Of a stretch of 64,000 nucleotides of DNA, positions 3,290 to 61,020 are shown piece by piece. Origin of the DNA: Prochlorothrix hollandica PCC 9006 = CALU 1027 (GTDB taxonomy: Bacteria; Cyanobacteriota; Cyanobacteriia; Prochlorotrichales; Prochlorotrichaceae). The translations under genes were made by a program, and so were the position numbers. How positions within the stretch are numbered: position 1 is the first letter of the stretch; the number at the start of each line of letters is the position of its first letter. The notes under the pieces are model-generated. The model made no database searches. It saw nothing but the letters and a program-made list of their open reading frames with translations, and was not told where the DNA came from. Where the stretch lies: the NCBI RefSeq assembly GCF_000332315.1, contig NZ_KB235944.1:166914-230913 (forward strand), read 5' to 3'.

Positions 3290-3557
3290 TACAGCAGTCC
3301 GAAATGGATCATGAATGGATCGTAAATGGATCATGAATGGATCGTAAATGGATCATGAATGGATCGTAAATGGATCGTAAATGGATCGTAAATGGATCAT
3401 AAAAGGATCATGAATTGATCGTAAATGGATCATGAAAGGATCATAAATGGATCATGAAAGGATCATAAATGGATCATAGGGTGTTTGCCCGGAGGGTACA
3501 TCCCACGCAAAAGGTTTCAGCCTTCGAGATCCTTACAACTGATTTAGAATTGCTGTA
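3290..3557 (+). repeat. TACAGCA element, copy 2, expanded by an internal minisatellite
   Basis: Both ends of the 103-bp element are present (TACAGCAGTCCGAAATGG at the left, GATTTAGAATTGCTGTA at the right). The segment that normally reads AATGGGTCGTG is replaced by about 170 bp (3303-3478) of AATGGATCRTGA-like units of about 11 bp. The insert appears to be a local expansion of the element's own sequence. Confidence 0.75.
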
Positions 3558-7666: not shown

Positions 7667-8728
7667 CTATACGGTTTCCAGATCAGACTCAGGTTCAGAC
7701 TGTTGATCAGCCTGGACCGGTGGAGCAGTCTCTGGTAGCGTCATAGCTTCAGGTGTCGTGACTTCAGGTGTCGTGACTTCAGGTGCTATAGCTTCAGGTG
7801 CCGTAACTTCGGGTGTCGTAACGTCAGGTGTTGTAACGTCGGGTGTCGTAACTGCGGGTGTCGTAACGTCGGGTGCCCCAGGGTCAGACCCTTCAGCAGA
7901 GCTTCCGAGGGCAGTCGCCTCTGGTGCTACGGCGGATTCAGAGGCCACGATCGTCCCCGTCCCGGTTGCAGGCTCTGACGATGCAGAGGCCGTTGCTGAA
8001 GAAGCCGTTGCTGAAGAAGCCGTTGCTGAAGAGGCCGTCTCTGAGGGTTCAGGAGCGGGAACCGGGGAAGTTGGTTCTCCCCCGTGAATCGGTTCCACCA
8101 TTAACGGCAGCGATCGCCGCAACCACACCACCGAACCCGCCCACACCGCCACCAACCCCAACACCAACAGCCCAAACTGTCCCACCCACTGCACCAACAC
8201 CGCCAAGGGCACCAACTGCCCCGCCCCATAGGCTAGCCCCACGATCGTCGAAACCCACAGCAACGCCCCCACCGCATTGCACACCAAAAACCGACCATAG
8301 GGCATGGCCGCAATCCCCGCCAAAGGACCAGCAAAAATGCGCAGAAAGGTCACAAAGCGCCCCAACAGTACCGCCTTGATGGCATTGCGGGCAAACTGTT
8401 CTCGCCCCTGTTCCAGGCGGTCTTCCGGGATCCGGAACATCCGCCCCGCCCACTGCACCAACTGCCAGCCCCCCCAGCGCCCCAGCCAATAGCCCAGGTT
8501 ATCCCCCAAAATCGATCCCCCTAGGGCACTGACCACCACTCCGCTGAGCCGCAAATCGCCACTACCCGCCAAAAATCCCCCCACCAAGGTGAGGCTTTCC
8601 CCCGGCAACGGTACGCCAGCGTTTTCCAACAGCAATCCCAAAAAGACCGTCCAGTAACCATAGCGCTGGGCCAGGGCTTCCAGTTGCTCCAGGGAAAAAA
8701 AGTCTAGGGATAAAAGGGCAATGGTCAC
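7667..8728 (-). CDS. DedA family membrane protein with long repetitive tail
   Basis: 353 aa. Residues 1 to about 205 form a DedA/SNARE-associated domain: ENAGVPLPGES near residue 36, GSILGDNLGYWLGR, then GRFVTFLRIFAGPLAGIAAM (the conserved F/GRF...R...G motif), with several membrane helices. DedA proteins are lipid flippase-like carriers, such as for undecaprenyl phosphate. The last 150 residues are unusual for the family: low-complexity blocks of SSATA and TTPDV/TTPEV units encoded by 15-bp DNA repeats, ending acidic. The tail probably lies outside the membrane and may vary in length between strains. GTG start at 8728. Confidence 0.88.
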   Translation of the reverse strand: MTIALLSLDFFSLEQLEALAQRYGYWTVFLGLLLENAGVPLPGESLTLVGGFLAGSGDLRLSGVVVSALGGSILGDNLGYWLGRWGGWQLVQWAGRMFRIPEDRLEQGREQFARNAIKAVLLGRFVTFLRIFAGPLAGIAAMPYGRFLVCNAVGALLWVSTIVGLAYGAGQLVPLAVLVQWVGQFGLLVLGLVAVWAGSVVWLRRSLPLMVEPIHGGEPTSPVPAPEPSETASSATASSATASSATASASSEPATGTGTIVASESAVAPEATALGSSAEGSDPGAPDVTTPAVTTPDVTTPDVTTPEVTAPEAIAPEVTTPEVTTPEAMTLPETAPPVQADQQSEPESDLETV

Positions 8729-11678: not shown

Positions 11679-12215
11679 CTAGTCTTGGAGGGCGGGAGCC
11701 TGGGCCAGGGTTAAGGCTCCCGCTTCCATCTGCTCTCGATCGCTGTCGCACCACGATCGCGGACCTTGGCAATGGTGAGCAATCAGCAAGCCCCACAACC
11801 CTGTAGCCGTCACAATGGGCACAGCGAGGTTGGCCCGCACCTGGAGTTGGCGCAAAAAGTCCCGGTGACAGGGGGCCATAGCTTCGGTTTCGATGTCGGC
11901 GATCGCCCGCACCCGACCGGCCAAATAGAGGGCGGCATACTCGTCGTTGAAACATTGATCGGGTCCGGTGGATCCAAAAATGGAAAGCCGTTGATCGATC
12001 AAGGCTTCAAAGGTCACCTGTCCTTCCCACTGTTTATAGAAGTAGTACAGCACCACCCGATCGACCGCCAGAGCAGCCCGCAAATCATGGACGGTGGTTT
12101 GCACCAGTTGATCATGGGCGATTTTATCGTTGAGGCGCTCTAGGATCCGCTGGAAAACTCTGATTTCCGTGGCAGCGGTGCGGGGCACCAGGGGAGGCTC
12201 AAGGTCGTGGGTCAT
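11679..12215 (-). CDS. Stand-alone DXCF-type cyanobacteriochrome-like GAF protein
   Basis: 178 aa, a single GAF domain (about residues 20-170) with nothing attached. It carries DQCF at 86-89 (a DXCF motif) and PCH at 115-117. Cys88 and Cys116 are 28 residues apart, the spacing I recall between the second and canonical bilin-binding cysteines of DXCF cyanobacteriochromes such as TePixJ. Flanking motifs GRVRAIADIE, LQVRANLAVPI and LWGLLIAHHC also match that family. If it binds phycocyanobilin or phycoviolobilin it would be a blue/green photosensor; with no output domain it must signal through a partner. It could also be a non-binding GAF relative. ATG start at 12215. Confidence 0.75.
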   Translation of the reverse strand: MTHDLEPPLVPRTAATEIRVFQRILERLNDKIAHDQLVQTTVHDLRAALAVDRVVLYYFYKQWEGQVTFEALIDQRLSIFGSTGPDQCFNDEYAALYLAGRVRAIADIETEAMAPCHRDFLRQLQVRANLAVPIVTATGLWGLLIAHHCQGPRSWCDSDREQMEAGALTLAQAPALQD

Positions 12216-12324: not shown

Positions 12325-13623
12325 TCAGGAGGCCGATCGCCCCCGATAGAAGCGGGCGAGGCGGTGGGGATCGATGCCGAGACCATAGCCGAGGATCATG
12401 GCTTGATTGATCACCGTCGTGCGCAGAACCCCTAGGGTGCGCCAGCGGCGATCGGAGGTTTGCACTACCGCTGGGGCCAATGCAATGCGGCCCTGGCTTT
12501 GGAGCCGTTGCACCAACTCAAAATCTTCCATAATGGGCAGATCGGCAAACTGCCCCACGGCTTCAAAGGTCGATCGCCACAGAAACAGCCCTTGATCCCC
12601 ATAGGGTAGCTGGCAATAGTGGGAGCGCACCTGGGTTCCCCACTCCACCCAGCGCAGACACCAACCCGCCCCGGCAATGTGCAACCGAAACGCCCCCGCC
12701 ACCACCTTGGGTTGGGCCAGGGTCACCTGCACCTGCTGCACAAAGTCCGACGGCAACCGGGTATCCCCATGGAGAAACAGCAACAGGGAGCCTTGGGCAT
12801 GGCTAGCCCCCAGGTTCATTTGCTGGGCGCGTCCGGGGGTGGTTTCCAGCACCTTGGCCCCCAGCCGCCGCGCCAGATCAGGGGTCCCATCCCGGCTGCC
12901 CCCATCCACCACCAGGATTTCCACCCCGGCTTGGTGGAGGGGTTCCAGAGTGCGTTCCAGGTGGGGGGCTTCGTTGAGGGTGGGGATAATCACCGACAGG
13001 GTGGGGATTTGCATCCGGGGGAAGCGATCCCAGATCACCAGATCTTCGGGGCGATCGATGTCGTGGAGCAGCGGCAATTGGGTCACCGACATCTGGGCTT
13101 GGCTGGCCCGCCCCAGGGTGTCCGCCAATACCTGATCCGTCCCCCAGGCCATATTTTGGAACAGGGCGGGGATGGCTTGGCGCAGACCAATCAGGTAGTA
13201 GCCCCCATCGATGGCCGGTCCCAGCACCAGATCCTGGGCACTGAGGGCGGCAAAGGCTTGGGTCAGAATGGGGGTATCCAAATCCGGGCAGTCAATGCCA
13301 ATGGTGACCACGGCTTGGTAGCCCGCTGCAAAGGCTGCGGCAAACCCTGCCGCCATGCGATCGCCCAAATCCCCATCCCCCTGGGGCTGGTAGTCCACAT
13401 CGGACCCCAACCACCGGGCCAGGGTCTCCCCATCGGCTCCGGTGTAGCGCACCTCCAAATCCACCCCCTGATGCTGGCGCAGGGCACGGGCCTGGGCCAG
13501 GGTATGCTCCGTCATTTGGCGCTGGAGGTCAGCGGCTCCCGTGGCTCCCAGGGCGGGAATGAGGCGGGTTTTGGTGCTGCCCGCGTGGGGGTAGCGGGTG
13601 AAGATAATCAGGCGTTGGGACAC
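12325..13623 (-). CDS. Fused TIGR04282-like nucleotidyl/glycosyltransferase and TIGR04283-like glycosyltransferase
   Basis: 432 aa. Residues 1 to about 200 resemble DUF2064/TIGR04282 (RLIIFTRYPHAGSTKTRL, TIGIDCPDLDTPIL, GPAIDGGYYLIGL). Residues about 205-430 form a family 2 glycosyltransferase of the TIGR04283 type (LSVIIPTLNEAPHLERTL, VDGGSRDGT, LFLHGDTRLP, YGDQGLFLWRSTFE). The two halves are often separate neighbouring genes, associated in some genomes with arsenosugar synthesis; here they are one chain. The arsenosugar link is from family annotation only, and no ArsM or ArsS gene is visible. GTG start at 13623. Confidence 0.82.
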   Translation of the reverse strand: MSQRLIIFTRYPHAGSTKTRLIPALGATGAADLQRQMTEHTLAQARALRQHQGVDLEVRYTGADGETLARWLGSDVDYQPQGDGDLGDRMAAGFAAAFAAGYQAVVTIGIDCPDLDTPILTQAFAALSAQDLVLGPAIDGGYYLIGLRQAIPALFQNMAWGTDQVLADTLGRASQAQMSVTQLPLLHDIDRPEDLVIWDRFPRMQIPTLSVIIPTLNEAPHLERTLEPLHQAGVEILVVDGGSRDGTPDLARRLGAKVLETTPGRAQQMNLGASHAQGSLLLFLHGDTRLPSDFVQQVQVTLAQPKVVAGAFRLHIAGAGWCLRWVEWGTQVRSHYCQLPYGDQGLFLWRSTFEAVGQFADLPIMEDFELVQRLQSQGRIALAPAVVQTSDRRWRTLGVLRTTVINQAMILGYGLGIDPHRLARFYRGRSAS

Positions 13624-18148: not shown

Positions 18149-19177
18149 CTAGGGGGAGGTGTACCAGAAGTAATCTGCGATCGCCCCCGGTCCCGCCGCT
18201 GCAAACTCTGGGGGAGGGTTAATCAAGACAATTTTTTGCACCAGATCTTTTTGCACTACATCTTTTTGCACTACATCTTTTTGCACTACATCTTTTTGCA
18301 CTACATCTTTTTGCACTACATCTTTTTGCACTACATCTTTTTGCACTACATCTTTTTGCACTACATCAGCCCCCAGTCGTCGCTGCACCCGTTGGGGAAT
18401 GCCGTAGCCATAGATGCCATGGCTGTGGCCCATCAGCACCACCACTGGCTGGGTTGGATTGGCCCGGAGATGGTCGGCGATCGTCGCCGCCATGGTTTCA
18501 TCCCATAGCACCTGGGCCGCCACAAAGTTTTCAAAACCGGCACTATTGCCGTGGCCATGGTGGCTTTGCTGGAAAATTTCCTCTAAAAAGGCCCGATAAC
18601 CGGGATCGCTGGTGTCAATGTCGGCGGGTGCGGGAACATAGCGACGATCGGCCTCGGTGATGCTATCCAACCCCTGGCGAGCCACTTTACGGGTAATCTC
18701 CGTGGGGGTATTGAGGGCCAACACCTTGATGCCCTGGGCTTGGGCAAACCGCAGCAGGGGGGCATACAGTTCCCAGTCAAAGCCCCAGCGCTCATCATAT
18801 TCGGTATCTCGCCGGAGGCTGGTTTCGTCGATCGATCCGGCTAAGTAGCGATCGATCACCCCTTGAAAGGGTCGCTGAAACATTTCCAACCCCAAGATCA
18901 AGTTTGGATTTTGCCGATGGAGGGCTTGGAGAATGGTCAGTTGGGCAGCATGATCTTCGGGGCGATCGTGGGTTTCCCCTAAATAGACCACCTGGGCCTG
19001 GGCCAAATCCGCCAGAATCGCCTCCGGGTTTGGGGTGGCGGGGGGGGCCACTGCCACGAGAGCCGGAACAGTTGGGGGCAGGGGCGGTAAGGATTCCGTG
19101 CCGAAAAGATGATGGGTCGCCGGGATGGACAGCAGGGCAAGGACACCCGCCAAACCGAGGATAGGGTGATAAAACAC
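18149..19177 (-). CDS. ChaN/DUF399-like (haem-uptake-type) protein with D-V-V-Q-K repeats
   Basis: 342 aa, probably exported: the short start MFYHP precedes a hydrophobic stretch (LGLAGVLALLSIPA). The body matches the ChaN/DUF399 (EreA-like) family: VVYLGETHDRPEDHAAQ, LILGLEMFQRP, RRYVPAPADID and VVVLMGHSHGIYGYGIP, with the GETH and H(S/A)H residues of the active or haem site. Between RLGA and IVLINPPPEF nine D(V/L)VQK pentapeptides are inserted, from a 15-bp DNA repeat at about 18235-18367. The frame is open back to 19426, but that part covers a terminator-like repeat, so I prefer the GTG at 19177. Confidence 0.75.
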   Translation of the reverse strand: MFYHPILGLAGVLALLSIPATHHLFGTESLPPLPPTVPALVAVAPPATPNPEAILADLAQAQVVYLGETHDRPEDHAAQLTILQALHRQNPNLILGLEMFQRPFQGVIDRYLAGSIDETSLRRDTEYDERWGFDWELYAPLLRFAQAQGIKVLALNTPTEITRKVARQGLDSITEADRRYVPAPADIDTSDPGYRAFLEEIFQQSHHGHGNSAGFENFVAAQVLWDETMAATIADHLRANPTQPVVVLMGHSHGIYGYGIPQRVQRRLGADVVQKDVVQKDVVQKDVVQKDVVQKDVVQKDVVQKDVVQKDLVQKIVLINPPPEFAAAGPGAIADYFWYTSP

Positions 19178-19426: not shown

Positions 19427-20245
19427 TTAACGCATTTTATGGTTTGGCCAAGTTAATAAGATCCTAGTTTTTCTGGCTATGGCAATTGTCCCGATCGTTC
19501 CTCTGTTTATAACCGTTCAGGGGGGGGACAAAGTTAGTGTGTCTCAGCCCTCCGATCGAGGGCTAAAATGGCCCGAAGTGGGACGATCCCAGATTTCCAG
19601 AGCCTGAAATCCCCATTCCCCCGCTGAACCCTGACGAGTGCCGGTTTGAAGAGAGGTTTCACCGATTAAGGTTCCGGTATCCATCAACATCGATATTCTG
19701 GGCAGCGTATAGAGCCTAAACCTGCAAAATTAGTGCAAGAGAACTAGTTTTTTGCCCTAGCTACCTTGCTCTAGCTACCTTGCTCTAGCTACCTTGCCCT
19801 AGCTACCTTGCCCTAGCTACCTTGCTCTAGCTACCTTGCTCTAGCTACCTTGCCCTAGCTACCTTGCCCTAGCAATGGTGACCTCAGAGCAAGCGATCGG
19901 TTAATGGCAGCAAACTGGTAAGGCTAGGGCACCTCGAAAAACTCAAATTTTTTCCCCTGTACCAACGCAGTAGTCAGGGTTATAGCAGTCCTAAATGGGT
20001 CGTGTGGTGTGCCCCCTCCGGGGGCACACCACACCAAGGGTTTCAGCCGTCGAGAGCCTTACAACTGATTTAGGGTTGCTGTATAGCGGAATTATTCAGG
20101 GGGTCACGGGAGAATGAGGGTTTCAGGCTTCAGAAAACAGACCTGAGGCGATGGGAGAGGGTCTATTTCACCTTGGCAGATTCCTCGATTTTGGTACGGG
20201 CAATCCCCCCGTGGTTGCCCCGGCTGTGGGTCGCCAAGATAGACA
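19427..20245. repeat. Gene-free gap with 14-bp minisatellite and element fragments
   Basis: About nine units of TAGCTACCTTGCYC fill about 19756-19873. A truncated GGGCACCTCGA element (19927-19980) is cut exactly where a TACAGCA element begins (19981). A part-copy of the composite repeat follows (20090-20245). No gene is apparent. Confidence 0.7.
19981..20083 (+). repeat. TACAGCA element, copy 5
   Basis: From TATAGCAGTCC to GGGTTGCTGTA. It abuts the truncated GGGCACCTCGA element, so it either inserted there or accompanied a deletion of that element's right half. Confidence 0.8.
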
Positions 20246-32772: not shown

Positions 32773-32991
32773 TATCAACTGAAGCCGGGACAGGGGGGCG
32801 ATCCACGTCCCGCTGTCCCGTTAATCTTGTCCCGCTGGCAGCGGTAAGCCCGATCTGCATCAAAAGGACGGGCATTATAGATCGCCCACGTTACAGATCG
32901 CCCACGTTACAGATCGCCCACGTTACAGATCGCCCACGTTACAGATCGCCCACGTTACAGATCGCCCACGTTACAGATCGCCCACATTTGA
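32773..32991. repeat. CCGGGACAG element followed by a 16-bp minisatellite
   Basis: Copy of the GGGACAG...TTAATCTTGTCCCGCT palindrome (32785-32850), then seven units of ACAGATCGCCCACGTT (32876-32988). No gene. Confidence 0.75.
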
Positions 32992-37667: not shown

Positions 37668-39905
<2,238 letters not shown>

Positions 39906-60799: not shown

Positions 60800-61020
60800 C
60801 CATCCCCTGGGATCGTCGAGTTGTACTCGACCCAAAGCCGACTACAAGTCGGCTCTCCCAGATCCCCTGGGATCGTCGAGTTGTACTCGACCCAAAGCCG
60901 ACTACAAGTCGGCTCTCCCAGAGATCCCCTGGGATCGTCGAGTTGTACTCGACCCAAAGCCGACTACAAGTCGGCTCTCCCAGAGATCCCCTGGGATCGT
61001 CGAGTTGTACTCGACCCGAA
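60800..61020. repeat. 62-64 bp tandem repeat, 3.5 units, double palindrome
   Basis: Each unit has GATCCCCTGGGATCGTC, GAGTTGTACTCGAC (palindrome) and GCCGACTACAAGTCGGC (palindrome). The units differ by an extra GA at the junction. It lies between the convergent end of flotillin 2 and the next gene. Confidence 0.88.

Follow-up and report, generated by a model that had tools for sequence, protein, structure and literature searches.

A conserved family of free-standing, DXCF-type cyanobacteriochrome GAF proteins represented in Prochlorothrix hollandica and predicted to bind bilin

Described DXCF cyanobacteriochromes and the gene in the window

Typical DXCF cyanobacteriochromes (CBCRs) convert phycocyanobilin to bound phycoviolobilin, switch between blue and green, and use a second cysteine that bonds C10 (PMC11284453). 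Their blue/green representative TePixJ (PDB 4fof, 4glq, 3vv4, 2m7u) has its GAF built into a methyl-accepting chemotaxis protein, and most studied cyanobacteriochromes have their output in the same chain, whereas the protein described here is a GAF alone, from a family that keeps both cysteines and never joins an output domain. Our search of the literature found no named class of single-domain cyanobacteriochromes. The closest individual case is Alr3356 of Nostoc PCC 7120, which has been annotated as 'similar to phytochrome' and described as a cyanobacteriochrome photoreceptor, with Ma et al. 2012 (FEBS J) cited in its regard (PMC4788461). Its gene rose 3.94-fold when furA was turned off and its promoter was bound by FurA in vitro, which made it a direct repressed target, and the same table lists nblA (up and bound) and pcyA (up, not bound) (PMC4788461).

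The window, a stretch of 64,000 nucleotides from P. hollandica PCC 9006, holds the gene and its domain at the following positions.

11679-12215, minus strand: gene for a 178-residue stand-alone CBCR-type GAF protein (from ORF translation, Pfam and family conservation)
11697-12113, minus strand: GAF domain (PF01590), residues 35-173 (Pfam)

The 178-residue frame lies on the minus strand, and the plus strand read in the same frame is interrupted by stops. Pfam assigned the protein one GAF domain, scoring 65 bits where the cut-off is 22, and no other domain; a HisKA/HATPase_c module is absent from the chain by both Pfam and the extent of the open frame. Because the stop-to-stop frame spans only 183 codons, no kinase, cyclase or receptor domain is contained in it. 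The original prediction had described a single-domain protein of 178 residues, with DQCF (Cys88) and PCH (Cys116) placed 28 residues apart and with kinase, cyclase and receptor domains all absent, and translation, the Pfam result and the frame length bear this description out.

Elsewhere in the window we observed a DedA-family membrane protein gene (7667-8728, minus strand) whose repetitive Thr/Pro/Val/Glu tail derives from 15-nt repeats at 7743-7876, and many short tandem repeat arrays with units of 11-18 nt, and in one case 62 nt (3302-3478, 18233-18367, 19752-19873, 32875-32985, 60802-61017 and others). Positions 38729-39905, called as tandem repeats with a period of about 73-77, form a CRISPR-like array with the repeat GTTTCCATTCAATTAGGATCCCCAGCGAGTGGGGAT and spacers of roughly 36-40 nt.

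Assignment to the DXCF cyanobacteriochromes

Alignment by phmmer of residues 80-149 with the TePixJ GAF (PDB 3vv4, 6p58) required no gaps and laid DQCF on DPCF and PCH on ECH, and this gap-free register therefore identifies Cys88 and Cys116 as the DXCF and canonical positions, respectively.

11949-11960, minus strand: DXCF motif DQCF, residues 86-89, with second cysteine Cys88 (from sequence and the TePixJ alignment; Cys88 present in 114 of 114 family members)
11865-11870, minus strand: canonical bilin-attachment motif Cys116-His117 (from the TePixJ alignment; invariant in 114 of 114 members; bilin attachment predicted)

The best PDB matches of the 178-residue protein were all bilin-binding CBCR or phytochrome GAFs, and profile comparison placed it among the bilin-binding GAF domains and not outside them. 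Modelling with AlphaFold2 on 20 family members (pLDDT 86, pTM 0.78) gave a structure that matched CBCR GAFs first among known structures, with TePixJ 4glq superposing at an rmsd of 1.7 A and a target TM of 0.85; the two share the DXCF and CH cysteines and the fold, at about 34-35% identity over the structural match. Residue comparison further revealed that the family keeps the pocket residues of bilin-binding CBCRs (Cys-His, Arg101, Trp141 and His147). Motif, profile, tree and predicted fold agree in making this single-domain protein a DXCF-type (dual-cysteine) CBCR GAF, and the identity initially proposed for it is supported on all four counts. It very probably binds a bilin covalently at Cys116, and Cys88 is likely to form a reversible adduct that gives a blue-absorbing state. 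A supply of bilin is indicated by a gene of the phycobilin reductase family in the same genome, an Fe_bilin_red (PF05996) match of 249 bits over the full model on contig C4. A second, partial match to this model lies on contig C1 (G000, 1014441-1014701; model positions 3-89, in a frame of 154 codons).

By both score and tree the closest multi-domain GAFs are DXCF or near-DXCF GAFs of histidine kinases, whose chains contain HATPase_c and an H-box of the AHEINN type. Sister placement to any single kinase GAF is weak (support 55/78), and we therefore assign no exact sister group among them; membership of the TePixJ subclade is not supported either, as TePixJ falls in another CBCR clade of the tree. 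We compared residues between the family, the kinase GAFs and other CBCR GAFs. The kinase DXCF GAFs (L182-L188) share with the family the Gly84 (mostly), Cys-Phe, Tyr-Ala and CH..FL positions but have HATPase_c modules and lack its Tyr58, Tyr60, Thr68, Thr83 and Asn90. The comparison across all three groups yielded Leu56, Tyr58, Tyr60, Thr68, Thr83 and Asn90 as family-specific residues, alongside a pocket signature common to all of them.

12036-12044, minus strand: Tyr58-Phe59-Tyr60, of which Tyr58 and Tyr60 are family-specific and a candidate partner surface (from the residue comparison)

Tyr58, Tyr60 and Thr68 are present in 94-100% of the family and are rare or absent in other CBCR GAFs, where the positions of the two tyrosines are mostly occupied by Gln, Arg, Lys, Asp or Glu. 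In the AlphaFold2 model residues 53-61 form a predicted strand, along which Tyr57 and Phe59, both shared, are interleaved with Tyr58 and Tyr60. From this alternation and the substitutions seen elsewhere we infer that Tyr58 and Tyr60 are exposed, and Tyr58, Thr68 and especially Tyr60 may form a family-specific contact surface.

The aspartate of the DXCF motif varies within the family, as Asp86 is replaced by Ser, Asn, Glu or Arg in 14 of 114 members, all with Cys88 retained, and typical DXCF photochemistry may therefore vary among them. In genus g14 none of the nine carriers has Asp86, and Ser or Arg stands in its place (L085, L092, L097, L098, L102, L103, L104, L107 and L144), which suggests altered tuning in that genus. 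In RcaE (8k9o) the corresponding positions read as Gln and Val.

Conservation and genomic setting of the family

A scan of GTDB genomes recovered 61 loci at 48-70% identity, nearly all of them frames of about 165-205 codons, with one shorter locus (L073) whose frame seems to be broken at the 5' end. Scores from a profile search over 386 sampled cyanobacterial genomes were sharply bimodal: 57 genomes carry a family gene, one copy each, at 215-296 bits and in every case free-standing in a frame of 165-213 codons, and the other matches listed reach at most 176 bits in frames of at least 383 codons. Among the matches listed in this search, the family gene was not found in the small-genome family f20. 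Relatives at 44-70% identity form a single clade on a long stem (bootstrap/SH-aLRT 100/100), and in 114 aligned members Cys88, Phe89, Cys116, His117, Arg101, Tyr60, Trp63, Trp141, His147 and Trp155 are invariant. Because both cysteines, Phe89 and His117 belong to this invariant set, the two-cysteine pattern is not a product of chance. The orthologous family occurs across about 15 cyanobacterial families and is fixed in its free-standing state, and the original expectation that free GAF photosensors are uncommon does not hold for this single-copy gene, which is present in 57 of 386 genomes and never fused.

The gene and both its neighbours are encoded on the minus strand, with argH downstream and, directly upstream (12325-13623), a TIGR04282-TIGR04283 fusion gene whose single protein joins two arsenosugar-type glycosyltransferase families. 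Clustering of the flanking genes at 62 loci found no operon partner conserved across families and only genus- or family-level synteny; because the neighbourhood is conserved among near relatives only, it indicates no partner gene. Microcoleaceae-type loci, for example, place the family gene beside a putative hydrolase or a uvrA-like gene (both named from sequence), and in several Nostocales close to PCC 7120 (L029, L030, L037) it comes right after ndhH; within that flanking-gene cluster the L048 member was checked and is ndhH. As ndhH of Nostoc/Anabaena sp. PCC 7120 is alr3355, the family member of that strain is most likely alr3356, with ndhH as its neighbour in place of the argH and glycosyltransferase fusion genes that flank the window gene. 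By synteny Alr3356 is thus the probable orthologue of the window protein, which falls in the family clade, and this kind of protein is probably already known in the literature as a CBCR. Seven blue-absorbing GAFs of PCC 7120, reportedly with Alr3356 among them, were characterised by Ma et al. 2012.

Proposed signalling in trans and its alternatives

The reading we prefer, at a probability of roughly 0.6 for the model as a whole, is that of a blue-absorbing dual-cysteine photoswitch that acts in trans on a partner. Phycocyanobilin would be attached at Cys116, with His117 adjacent, and a second, reversible bond between Cys88 and the bilin would give a blue-absorbing dark state; the photoproduct would probably absorb at longer wavelength, with or without isomerisation to phycoviolobilin. 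Because the family has neither an output domain nor a fixed neighbour gene, the free photoswitch would most likely act in trans by binding and modulating a partner, and we consider such signalling reasonably probable. The original statement that a free GAF photosensor must act through a partner is thereby kept as a probable reading, beside a less probable bilin-binding role that does not signal. The partner might be a histidine kinase, since the nearest relatives are GAFs of such kinases, docked through the family surface around Tyr58, Tyr60 and Thr68.

The main rival is a bilin-binding protein that handles or protects without signalling, namely a small carrier, sink or photoprotective quencher of free phycocyanobilin, for example when phycobilisomes are turned over under iron or oxidative stress. 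The lack of an output domain and of a conserved neighbour would suit such a role, as would the FurA binding and derepression of alr3356 in company with nblA and pcyA, but the authors of that study regard Alr3356 as a sensory photoreceptor (PMC4788461), and conservation of the second cysteine together with the whole CBCR pocket signature goes beyond what a carrier needs; we judge this alternative unlikely. A role for the two invariant cysteines in redox chemistry or in binding another ligand, in a GAF free of bilin, would agree with the control that FurA, which is redox-sensitive and responds to iron, exerts on the probable orthologue, yet all pocket residues shared with CBCRs are retained (including Cys-His, Arg101, Trp141 and His147) and the nearest solved relatives bind bilin, which leaves it with very little weight.

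A narrower version of the trans-acting photoswitch, overlapping with it, is a photosensor that homodimerises, or heterodimerises with CBCR kinase GAFs, and so serves as a modulating kinase subunit and not as a diffusible messenger. GAF modules have a dimerising helix, and the long first helix predicted here (residues 13-49) resembles one; the kinship with histidine kinase GAFs points the same way. Co-localisation with such kinases is confined to scattered cases, however, and the 55/78 support ties the family to no one kinase GAF, so we regard this version, too, as unlikely. A single GAF without an output domain could also be what truncation has left of a larger photoreceptor kinase, or a gene in decay, but this is effectively ruled out by conservation and by similar frame lengths: all 57 of 57 profile matches and nearly all 61 scanned loci are free-standing and of similar length, at 44-70% identity and with invariant motifs, and the internal stops reported in three matches (G058, G083, G129) are located outside the open frames.

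Returning to the photoswitch acting in trans, we tentatively entertain, as a doubtful extension, that the family is a general class of light-switched photosensor subunits, detached much as single-domain response regulators are, which would dock through Tyr58 and Tyr60 onto an enzyme or kinase of another chain and would couple blue light to iron status via FurA. What our analyses add is that the free-standing state is fixed in an orthologous family and that its family-specific residues hint at a partner surface. Light signalling by such a family, if real, must pass between proteins. With its family-specific residues and with Asp86 lost throughout one genus, the family lends itself to direct tests of partner binding and colour tuning, and a free-standing GAF of this kind is a natural small photoswitch with possible use as a tool.
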